A DNA stretch of 64,000 nt. Source: Synechococcus sp. RS9916 (lineage in GTDB: Bacteria; Cyanobacteriota; Cyanobacteriia; PCC-6307; Cyanobiaceae). Shown here one piece after another: positions 42,255 to 45,875 of the stretch; the stretch's first letter is position 1; each line of letters begins with the position of its first letter. The position numbers were made by a program, and so were the translations under genes. The stretch is taken from NCBI RefSeq assembly GCF_000153825.1, contig NZ_DS022299.1:2010869-2074868 (forward strand), in the 5' to 3' direction. Below the pieces are notes generated by a model that was not told the DNA's origin, did not search any database, and saw only the letters and a list, made by a program, of their open reading frames with translations.

Positions 42255-43361
42255 GTGTCTCTGCTCCAGAACCTCCGCAGGCGTCTGAACACCGGACCAG
42301 TCATGCAGGACTGGCCCGGTCTGATTGAGGCCTACCGGAGCTGGCTGCCGGTCTCCAACACCACACCGGTGGTGACGCTTCGCGAAGGCGCCACTCCGCT
42401 AATTCCCGTTCCAGCCGTAGCGGAACGCATCGGCAAGGGCGTGAAGGTGTACGTGAAATACGACGGCCTCAATCCCACCGGTTCATTCAAAGACCGGGGC
42501 ATGACCATGGCCATCAGCAAGGCCAAGGAAGAAGGCTGCGAAGCGGTGATCTGCGCCAGCACCGGCAACACCTCAGCCGCGGCCGCCGCCTATGCCCGCC
42601 GCGCCGGCATGCGGGCCTTCGTATTGATTCCCGATGGCTATGTCGCCCAGGGCAAGCTGGCTCAAGCCTTGGTCTATGGGGCTGAAGTACTGGCCATCCG
42701 AGGCAACTTTGACCGGGCCCTCGACATTGTTCGGGAGGCGGCTGAGAAGTATCCGGTCACCCTGGTGAACTCGGTGAACCCCTACCGCCTGCAGGGCCAG
42801 AAAACAGCTGCTTTCGAGGTGATCGATGCCCTCGGCGATGCGCCCGACTGGCTGTGCATCCCCATGGGCAACGCCGGCAACATCACCGCCTACTGGATGG
42901 GTTTCCAGGAGTACCACCAGGCCGGCCGCAGCCGCACCCTTCCCCGGATGATGGGCTTCCAGGCGAGCGGCTCCGCTCCTCTGGTGAACAACACCACGGT
43001 GGACGACCCCAACACGATCGCCACCGCGATCCGCATCGGCAACCCCGTCAACAGGGAAAAAGCCCTCGCGGCCCGCGAAGCCAGCAATGGAGCGTTTCTG
43101 GATGTCACCGACGCCGAAATCGTCGCGGCCTACAAACTGCTCGGAGGAGAAGAAGGCATCTTCTGTGAACCGGCCAGTGCTGCATCCGTGGCCGGACTGC
43201 TCAAACGCAAAGACGAAGTGCCCGCAGGAGCCACCGTGGTGTGCGTGCTCACCGGTAACGGACTGAAGGACCCTGACTGCGCCATCAACAACAACGACGC
43301 AGCCTTCCACACCGACCTGGCTCCCGATCTGGGCACTGTGGCCAAGGTGATGGGGTTCTGA
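42255..43361 (+). CDS. thrC: Threonine synthase
   Basis: Converts O-phosphohomoserine to threonine with pyridoxal phosphate. Up to 368 residues. The PLP lysine lies in [34 protein letters not shown]-type sequence and [10 protein letters not shown] bind the cofactor phosphate; [17 protein letters not shown] follows near the C-terminus. The start is either GTG 42255 or ATG 42303 ([12 protein letters not shown]), the latter closer to family N-termini. A terminator follows, and beyond it the replication origin. Confidence 0.95.
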
Positions 43362-43400
43362 ACCGACGTTCAAACAAGCCTCTGCCGTCAGGGAGCTCTC

Positions 43401-43424
43401 AGCCCCCGCCATCGGGGGCTTTTT
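43401..43424 (+). terminator. Rho-independent terminator of thrC
   Basis: AGCCCCCG (43401-43408), CCAT loop, CGGGGGCT (43413-43420), followed by T through 43424. It shields the origin region from thrC transcription. Confidence 0.85.
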
Positions 43425-43541
43425 GATGCGCTTTGCATGGGCAACCAACCGACAAAGCGGCTGCGGAAGACCGCCGAAAAGAGGGGAGAAAAGTGGTGGA
43501 AAACTCCGGCCAAGACCCGCCTCCACCCCAACAGCCATTTC

Positions 43542-43776
43542 CCCCAGGCTGTGGAAGCTGTGCAAAACGCTCGGCTTTCCGCATCGCGAGACCAACATTC
43601 CCCAGACCTGTGCAAGCCAGAATCGTTGTCTGCATAGGCTTTTGGAGGGTTTTCCACCCATTCCCCAACCCCTATTACGGCTGTTTGATTTGGTTTTAAA
43701 AGCTTTTAAATCCCGTTAGACGGATCGGATCACTTGCTTGCGGCAGGCCGTTGCACATCTCCCCAGCCTGTGAAAC
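43542..43776. repeat. Three CCCCAG...CTGTG.AA repeat units in oriC
   Basis: CCCCAG followed after one or two bases by CTGTG and N-AA occurs at 43542-43557, 43600-43616 and 43761-43776, all in the same orientation. Each unit contains a DnaA-like box on the minus strand, so CCCCAG may be part of an extended binding unit. Confidence 0.6.
43695..43710. repeat. Perfect 16-base AT-rich palindrome
   Basis: TTTAAAAGCTTTTAAA is its own reverse complement and forms the core of the most AT-rich patch of the origin region. Confidence 0.6.
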
Positions 43777-43817
43777 CGTGGAGAGCCTTCAGCACGCATG
43801 GTCGGGACGTTGACCCC

Positions 43818-44990
43818 ATGAAACTGGTCTGTTCCCAGTCAGAGCTCAATTCAGCCCTTCAGCTCGTCAGCCGGGCTGTCGCGTCTCGGCCAACCCATCC
43901 GGTCTTGGCCAACGTGTTGTTGACCGCTGATGCCGGCACCGGACGCCTCAGTCTCACGGGCTTTGATCTCAACCTTGGGATCCAGACATCCTTTACCGCC
44001 TCCGTGGAAGCCAGCGGTGCCGTGACGCTTCCGGCCCGTTTGCTCGGTGAAATCGTCAGTCGTTTGTCGGCCGATTCCCCCATCACGCTTGCCACCGATG
44101 ACGCCAGTGAGCAGGTGGAGCTCACCAGCCTGAGCGGTAGCTACCAGATGCGGGCGATGCCGGCGGATGAATTCCCCGACCTCCCCCTGGTGGAAAACGG
44201 CACCGCCCTGCGGGTGGAAGCAGCGTCGCTGGTGCAGGCTCTACGCGGCACGTTGTTCGCCAGTAGCGCCGACGAAGCCAAGCAACTGCTCACGGGTGTG
44301 CATCTGCGCTTCCAAGCCCGCAACCTCGAAGCAGCGTCCACCGATGGCCACAGGTTGGCGGTCTTGGCGGTGAAAGACGCACTGCAAGACGACCCCAGCG
44401 GCGCGCCGGATGCCGACACCACCACCGAAGACGGGGTCCTCGCGGTCACCCTGCCCGCCCGCTCCCTGCGTGAAGTGGAGCGCTTGATTGCTGGTTGGAA
44501 AGGTGACGATCCCGTGACCCTCTTCTATGACCGCGGTCAGGTGGTCGTGCTCGCTGCTGACCAGATGGTGACCAGCCGCACCTTGGAAGGCACCTATCCC
44601 AACTATCGCCAGCTCATTCCCGACGGGTTCACGCGCACCATCGACCTCGAGCGCCGTCCGTTCATGGCGGCTTTGGAACGGGTGGCTGTTTTGGCTGATC
44701 AGCACAACAACGTGGTGCGCATCAGCACCGAGCCCACCGCAGGCCTGGTGCAAATCAGTGCCGATGCTCAGGATGTGGGGAGTGGTTCCGAATCTCTTCC
44801 AGCCACCCTCGTGGGAGATGCCATGCAGATCGCCTTCAACGTGCGCTATGTGCTGGATGGCCTCAAGGCGATGGAGGCGGATCGGATTGTGCTGCAGTGC
44901 AACGCCCCCACCACACCTGCGATCCTCACCCCGGCTGATGACACCTCTGGTTTCACCTACCTGGTGATGCCCGTTCAGATCCGCAACTGA
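43818..44990 (+). CDS. dnaN: DNA polymerase III subunit beta (sliding clamp)
   Basis: Ring-shaped clamp that tethers DNA polymerase III to DNA. 390 residues, three similar domains. Typical blocks are MKLVCSQSELNSALQLVSRAVASRPTHPVLANVLL, SADEAKQLLTGVHL, ASTDGHRLAV, and the C-terminal TPAILTPADDTSGFTYLVMPVQIRN that forms the protein-binding pocket. ATG 43818 fits the family start; the upstream in-frame GTG/TTG codons lie in origin sequence. First gene beyond oriC, reading away from it. Confidence 0.97.
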   Translation: MKLVCSQSELNSALQLVSRAVASRPTHPVLANVLLTADAGTGRLSLTGFDLNLGIQTSFTASVEASGAVTLPARLLGEIVSRLSADSPITLATDDASEQVELTSLSGSYQMRAMPADEFPDLPLVENGTALRVEAASLVQALRGTLFASSADEAKQLLTGVHLRFQARNLEAASTDGHRLAVLAVKDALQDDPSGAPDADTTTEDGVLAVTLPARSLREVERLIAGWKGDDPVTLFYDRGQVVVLAADQMVTSRTLEGTYPNYRQLIPDGFTRTIDLERRPFMAALERVAVLADQHNNVVRISTEPTAGLVQISADAQDVGSGSESLPATLVGDAMQIAFNVRYVLDGLKAMEADRIVLQCNAPTTPAILTPADDTSGFTYLVMPVQIRN

Positions 44991-45011: not shown

Positions 45012-45875
45012 GTGGCGCTTCCGGATCAGGTTCTGCTCAGTGATCTCCTGCACCATCGGGTGCGTTGTGATCAGGGCCTGGATCACGGCCCTGGTGTCAT
45101 GGCCTGGATGCATCCCCCGGTGCATCGTTTGCTCGGTTGGGTCAGCCGGCCCTCAGCCTTGCGCAACAGCCGGGATGTGTGGCGTCTGAATCAGTGCCGG
45201 GGATTCACGGATCAGGAGGTGTTTGTCAAAGGGCCTCCTGCCCTCACCGATCAGCTCACGCTGGAGCGGTTGCCGACGCTGATGGAAGCGGATCTTCTCG
45301 ATCGCCATGGTGAGCGGCTGGGACAGATTGCCGATCTCACCTTTGTGCCGGCCACCGGTGAAATCCTTCACTACCTCGTGTCGCGCAGTGACCCCCGCCT
45401 CCCCGGGAGCAGCCGCTGGCGTCTAACTCCAGATCGCATCGTTGATCAACAGCCTGGTCGGGTCAGCACCGGTCTGAGTGATCTTGATGATCTGCCCTTG
45501 GCCCGTTCCAGTGTTCGACAGGATTTTCTGCGCAAATCCCGTGGTTGGCGGGAGCAGATCCAGCACATGGGCGACCGTGCGGGTGAACGCCTGGAAGGGT
45601 GGTTGGAAGAGCCCCCTTGGGAGGGCCCGGGCACGGCCGGCTGGGTCGAACGGGACGATGCACGTTCTTCGGAGCGTGACTGGTCGCCTGAGCCTGCTCA
45701 GGACCCCCTCTCACTGGAGGATGAGCCCGATGCGGATTGGGACGATCCCCTGGATGGCTGGGAGGCACCCGAGTGGGAGGAGGACCAACCTCCGCGGTCA
45801 ACCCGTGAACGCCGCCCACCCAGCCATCGCGAGCCAGGCGCAGACCGTGATTTCGATCCTGACCCCTGGGTCTGA
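45012..45875 (+). CDS. PRC-barrel domain protein
   Basis: 287 residues. The central LMEADLLDRHGERLGQIADLTFVPATGEILHYLVSRSDPR (about 95-135) is a PRC-barrel, the small beta-barrel also found in photosynthetic reaction centre H subunits and RimM. A second, weaker copy occurs near the N-terminus (VLLSDLLHHRVRC). The C-terminal third is acidic, Pro/Trp/Asp-rich and probably disordered, ending DFDPDPWV. GTG 45012. It sits between dnaN and purL in marine picocyanobacteria; its function is not known. Confidence 0.7.
   Translation: MALPDQVLLSDLLHHRVRCDQGLDHGPGVMAWMHPPVHRLLGWVSRPSALRNSRDVWRLNQCRGFTDQEVFVKGPPALTDQLTLERLPTLMEADLLDRHGERLGQIADLTFVPATGEILHYLVSRSDPRLPGSSRWRLTPDRIVDQQPGRVSTGLSDLDDLPLARSSVRQDFLRKSRGWREQIQHMGDRAGERLEGWLEEPPWEGPGTAGWVERDDARSSERDWSPEPAQDPLSLEDEPDADWDDPLDGWEAPEWEEDQPPRSTRERRPPSHREPGADRDFDPDPWV

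Follow-up and report, generated by a model that had tools for sequence, protein, structure and literature searches.

Cyanobacterial origins are usually found beside dnaN. Of 68 such origins predicted, 55 have this gene as a neighbour (PMC4674748), and dnaN-adjacent origins with TTTTCCACA boxes have been predicted by Ori-Finder in Synechococcus, WH 8102 included (PMC2275245). The DnaA of S. elongatus is reported to unwind its own box-trio scaffold, and the published trio rule requires at least three consecutive units in which the middle base of the bound strand is adenine, read as NTN on the plus strand (PMC8287927). DnaA is also described as acting at promoters elsewhere, and dnaA-free cyanobacteria with irregular skew are on record (PMC7198777).

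The window analyzed here is a stretch of 64,000 nucleotides of Synechococcus sp. RS9916, corresponding to positions 2010869-2074868 of one 2,664,873-base contig (completeness 99.97%). The stop codon of thrC lies at 43361 and the ATG of dnaN at 43818, leaving an intergenic gap of 456 bases (43362-43817). Judged from sequence, this gap is the chromosomal origin oriC with a probability of about 0.95. The features of the locus are as follows, with mismatches counted against TTTTCCACA and fractions giving the aligned sequences that could be read at each site.

42255-43361, plus strand: thrC (threonine synthase), left neighbour, an ORF matching TIGR00260 at 336 bits over the cut-off
43401-43420, plus strand: terminator-like hairpin between thrC and the predicted origin; 1 found versus a shuffle mean of 0.8, weak alone
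43462-43470, minus strand: predicted box b1, TCTTCCGCA; 2 mismatches in the window, at most 2 in 30/56, perfect in 0
43495-43503, minus strand: predicted box b2, TTTTCCACC; 1 mismatch in the window, at most 1 in 32/57, perfect in 9
43538-43546, plus strand: predicted box b3, TTTCCCCCA; 2 mismatches in the window, at most 1 in 36/57, perfect in 7
43550-43558: weaker box-like site GCTTCCACA, adjoining b5
43559-43567, minus strand: predicted box b5, TTTTGCACA, the gap's sole exact TTWTNCACA; at most 1 mismatch to TTTTCCACA in 15/58, perfect in 0
43596-43604, plus strand: predicted box b7, CATTCCCCA; 3 mismatches in the window, at most 1 in 18/58, perfect in 5
43650-43658, plus strand: predicted box b9, TTTTCCACC, first of a tandem pair; at most 1 mismatch in 20/58, perfect in 2
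43659-43667, plus strand: predicted box b10, CATTCCCCA, second of the tandem pair; 3 mismatches in the window, at most 2 in 48/58, perfect in 0
43672-43683, plus strand: CTA-TTA-CGG-CTG, in place of DnaA-trios; DnaA would hold the other strand
43684-43736, no strand: AT-rich patch by composition, presumed unwinding region
43749-43780, no strand: conserved block with TTGCRC and TGTGAAAC, presumed dnaN regulatory region outside the origin
43818-44990, plus strand: dnaN (sliding clamp), right neighbour, matching TIGR00663 at 323.5 bits over the cut-off

The same contig carries dnaA at 271634-272989; if the contig is circular, this gene is some 0.88 Mb from the gap. With dnaN on one flank and dnaA elsewhere, the gap is placed like a dnaN-adjacent oriC. 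Several claims of the first-pass annotation were confirmed at this level: a gene-free gap between thrC and dnaN (456 bases, with both genes matched by profiles), a dnaA that is not adjacent, one perfect TTWTNCACA with about six variants (one exact copy, and seven sites within two mismatches of TTTTCCACA) and an AT-rich patch (62-64% AT over 43662-43736). The trinucleotide motif at 43672-43683 and the usual cyanobacterial arrangement, dnaN-adjacent and dnaA-distant, were both absent from that annotation. In the family set, which as drawn takes in records titled Synechococcus, Cyanobium and Prochlorococcus, dnaN was detected in 184 of 201 genomes and in all 131 near-complete ones, and among the 59 genomes read, 56 have thrC no more than 1000 bases upstream of dnaN. 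In three genomes (G101, G123 and G075), thrC was not found within that distance and the origin core is present. No RNA element was found in 43000-44200 at Rfam gathering scores.

The single exact TTWTNCACA of the gap is on the minus strand. Against TTTTCCACA, the gap contains no perfect site, three sites with at most one mismatch and seven with at most two, while dinucleotide shuffles of the gap yielded means of 0.24 and 2.13, and the observed counts were reached in only 4 and 3 of 1000 shuffles, respectively. The sites at 43550, 43575 and 43609 are weaker. Counted in sliding 300-base intervals of the samples and the window, box density is highest in the gap. Counted in fixed tiles, the gap is level with two others at one mismatch or fewer and is second at two or fewer. 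Box density was dropped as the sole proof of an origin, since the gap is not unique in fixed tiles and perfect boxes exist away from the origin. Skew and conservation decide the question.

Conservation was assessed in an alignment of 58 genomes, the window's own included and G025 left out, as it has no comparable gap. Seven box sites (b1, b2, b3, b5, b7, b9 and b10) recur at fixed alignment positions. Boxes with at most one mismatch are present in 14, 56, 63 and 26% of the readable sequences at b1, b2, b3 and b5, and in 31, 34 and 31% at b7, b9 and b10. The eight alignment positions richest in such boxes comprise these seven sites and b5 again in a register shifted by one base, while all other positions and strands carry them at 4% or less, with a median of 0. 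Perfect copies of TTTTCCACA occur in relatives at b2 (9), b3 (7), b7 (5) and b9 (2), and at b1, b5 and b10 there are none among the readable sequences. Outside the family, the inspected cyanobacteria have TTTTCCACA or a near match at the place of b9. The predicted DnaA-box sites of the gap are weak, but kept in position among relatives.

The dnaN-facing half of the cluster is laid out in a particular order: tandem boxes, a short C-rich stretch, four trinucleotides and the AT-rich patch. Both b9 and b10 are aimed at dnaN and the trinucleotides, and their ends lie 13 and 4 bases, respectively, from position 43672, within the 16 bases that the Bacillus subtilis BUS allows between box and trios. 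The AT content of 50-base intervals reaches 62-64% over the patch, compared with 36-50% in those around it. The genome has a single copy of the string of tandem boxes plus trios and no further match within three mismatches. However, the trio tract contains only two NTN units running (CTA TTA) before CGG, one fewer than the published rule of three. The gap is therefore BUS-like in layout, yet it is not classed as a BUS.

A possible course of initiation can be proposed from this layout. DnaA, supplied by a gene 0.88 Mb away, would load on the weak boxes and, starting at the tandem pair, extend along a single strand of the trinucleotides. The AT-rich patch would then be opened by DnaA, allowing the helicase to load and two forks to depart in opposite directions.

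Base skew was calculated from sixty 12-kb samples, covering 27% of the 2.66-Mb chromosome. The minima of cumulative GC, TA and keto skew all fall in the sample 2043045-2055044, which includes the thrC-dnaN gap, and the maxima fall in samples whose midpoints are 716624 or 761038. For the two-arc fits, R2 was 0.54, 0.76 and 0.72 (GC, TA and keto), versus permutation maxima of 0.33, 0.27 and 0.31 (n=100). Within the window, the minima lie at 45057 (GC), 43622 (TA) and 44466 (keto), with the gap at 43362-43817. The gap position is where the skew switches from lagging to leading strand, as at an oriC. The first-pass annotation had placed the chromosome origin beside dnaN and had named a skew minimum elsewhere as the observation that would speak against it; the minima of the 27% sample are at the gap, and the proposal is further supported by the positional conservation of the boxes and by the absence of the module in the dnaA-less G025.

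The origin core was searched for with a model based purely on the sequence of 43536-43700 in 47 genomes, which match by construction. Among the family genomes it hits 181 of 201, and among the near-complete ones 130 of 131; at least 89 near-complete genomes lie outside the model set, and all of these match except G025. The position of the match beside dnaN was seen for the aligned genomes. The model also hits widely beyond the family: of 194 genomes drawn from the class (the family's 21 included), 175 match, among them 165 of 183 near-complete ones, leaving 19 of 194 without a match. DnaA (TIGR00362) was detected in 184 of 201 family genomes and in 130 of the 131 near-complete ones. G025 is the sole near-complete genome without a model match and also the sole one without DnaA.

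The G025 regions concerned are C1:733000-737500 and 171077-173810. Its thrC-dnaN gap is only 150 bases long, a shortness that was spotted before the search for dnaA, and lacks boxes and trios. The homologues of the genes that flank the dnaA region, presumably encoding an htrA-like protease and a glutathione-reductase-like enzyme as named from their sequences, stand 271 bases apart in G025, in the middle of contig C1, while the same interval in the window's genome contains dnaA and one further ORF. No dnaA remnant was found in the 271-base interval (best E 2.6), and dnaA is cleanly deleted in this genome. Twenty 15-kb samples, all of C1, display no two-arc skew pattern, the fit being reached by 113, 89 and 185 of 200 permutations. 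A moved origin was sought in G025 and rejected: the trio pattern gave two-mismatch matches only, around or below the control (9 vs 23), and the core model has no match in the genome. DnaA went unmatched in 16 further genomes, none of them more than 86% complete; the core is kept in 10, and the remaining 6 also lack dnaN and therefore look like assembly gaps. The other 19 model misses comprise 17 genomes without dnaN, G125 (dnaN at contig base 6) and G176 (weak dnaN match). The three losses of G025, namely dnaA, the oriC module and the skew, fit the removal of a DnaA-dependent origin, in one genome of 95% completeness. Since G025 keeps thrC and dnaN in place after losing dnaA and the oriC module, it separates the origin from the control of dnaN.

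A rival possibility is that the box cluster is regulatory, with DnaA controlling dnaN transcription and replication starting elsewhere. The immediate downstream neighbour of the gap is dnaN, the end of the gap is a conserved block without boxes, and the promoter action of DnaA known elsewhere (PMC7198777) would suit such a role. We nevertheless consider it very improbable, because the skew minima lie at the gap, the order of tandem boxes, trios and AT-rich DNA is that of an unwinding site, and G025 keeps dnaN and, by eye, the proximal block while its boxes, trios, dnaA and skew pattern are gone. Nor is it credible, except at the very margin, that the origin lies at another box cluster, for example at 962.8 kb or 1438.5 kb. 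Each of these places has two perfect TTTTCCACA copies, and the 962.8-kb set is common to the two nearest relatives, but both are placed where the cumulative skew falls steadily, away from any turning point, and neither has a trio-like core, as the core string is single-copy in the genome. The boxes of the thrC-dnaN gap may affect dnaN as well.

The block nearest to dnaN is presumably a separate element. Relatives in the alignment keep its box-like strings (near 43749 and 43769), though not in the form of DnaA boxes, and the block is still recognisable by eye in G025 despite the loss of the origin. Consensus matching revealed no sigma-70-like promoter for dnaN. The conservation pattern suggests that this block probably serves dnaN expression rather than the origin.

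DnaA boxes also occur away from the gap. An excess of TTTTCCACA across the genome was not found, with 11 copies versus 11 for the reversed control. Two tight pairs of perfect copies are present, at 962788/962895 and 1438494/1438538. The first pair belongs to a set of four boxes beyond the 3′ end of pepN (962788-962942), the other two having one mismatch each. Three of these boxes are present in each of the nearest relatives, G156 and G169, and one or more boxes stand at this place in 11 of 28 genus members, 20 boxes in total compared with 1 in a control stretch (28 of 30 loci were used, two truncated loci being dropped). The second is an inverted pair, 44 bases apart, around a hairpin-like GC-rich stretch (1438494-1438546). 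A perfect TTTTCCACA is also found within the dnaA coding region (272355-272363). As a guess, the two off-origin clusters may hold or titrate DnaA, and the one past pepN is a candidate for DnaA titration or regulation.

The trio tract was compared inside and outside the family. At least three consecutive NTN units are present in all 17 family genomes below 45% GC and in 2 of the 41 above (GC of the 1000 bases upstream). At the trio place, CTACTACTA is found in 17/17 AT-rich family members and 1/41 GC-rich ones. Outside the family, 41 of the 43 origins sampled (23 best-scoring model matches and 20 picked lower in the list) carry it as well, a count that leans towards the consensus because these loci are model hits, and 22 of the 24 outside loci with a locus GC of at least 50% carry it, up to 59% GC. 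With shared ancestry uncorrected, these distributions are most simply read as a CTA tract that was ancestral and became altered among the GC-rich members of the family. The unwinding motif of the window is, by this comparison, a worn-down form of one that is nearly unchanged in sampled cyanobacteria outside the family.

The alteration follows a pattern. Across the four units of the 41 GC-rich genomes, C occupies the first position in 161 of 164 cases; the centre base is T in 95, G in 63, A in 5 and C in 1, and the third base is A in 97, G in 63, T in 3 and C in 1. These members keep a three-base rhythm, C[T/G][A/G], in which the centre shifts to G and hardly ever to C. The family trio sequences form a graded series from CTACTACTACTA to CTACGACGACGG. 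The GGKDHTTVMYAIEQ stretch is identical in the DnaA of the window's genome and of two relatives and does not explain the trio change.

One explanation, to which we give slightly less than even odds, is that GC-rich picocyanobacteria have recoded the trio instead of losing it, to a tract of four units in three-base phase, 3'-G[A/C][T/C]-5', where cytosine may replace the central adenine that is regarded as the conserved base, with DnaA still unwinding. The change would then belong to the family and not to GC content alone, as cyanobacteria outside it keep CTACTACTA at 50-59% GC. Plain decay of the tract, with DnaA needing only boxes and AT-rich DNA and the trios irrelevant, appears rather unlikely. 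It would account for the failure of the published rule in 39 of 41 GC-rich family genomes and for the correlation between GC content and the longest NTN run (rho -0.73, shared ancestry uncorrected). However, drift towards GC should yield C as well as G at the centre, whereas the centre is C just once and the first base is almost always C, and the trio tract ranks among the best conserved parts of the gap. If the recoded trio is true, programs demanding three central adenines would miss such tracts.

Few phototrophs are as abundant as marine picocyanobacteria, whose cell cycle is set at the origin. The graded trio series provides a natural experiment on which trio base matters to DnaA, and G025 provides a second one in the same family. 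In listings of open-licence papers, we found no paper on altered trios in picocyanobacteria and none describing a picocyanobacterium that has lost both dnaA and oriC.

Among known systems, the gap most resembles the cyanobacterial dnaN-adjacent oriC of S. elongatus PCC 7942, Anabaena PCC 7120, Cyanothece ATCC 51142 and, as a prediction, WH 8102, which likewise lie on the dnaN side and distant from dnaA. According to the descriptions in PMC2275245, PMC4674748 and PMC7198777, it shares with them an AT-rich stretch and a V-shaped skew. Its boxes approach the TTTTCCACA type, with three sites at one mismatch or fewer, but none is a perfect TTTTCCACA, and the trio tract is altered. The sequence of Synechococcus WH7803 (CT971583.1) starts 173 bases ahead of dnaN, inside the corresponding region, as do at least 12 family contigs. 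The order and spacing of co-oriented tandem boxes, short C-rich spacer, trinucleotides and AT-rich DNA are the same as in the B. subtilis BUS, which differs in requiring, as described in PMC8287927, at least three central-adenine units where the window has two running and then CGG. G025, similar to the dnaA-free cyanobacteria described in PMC7198777, pairs the loss of dnaA with a flat skew; it is a member of the picocyanobacterial family and shows the matching loss of the oriC module at dnaN. The site is a known kind of origin, and its altered unwinding motif is the new detail.
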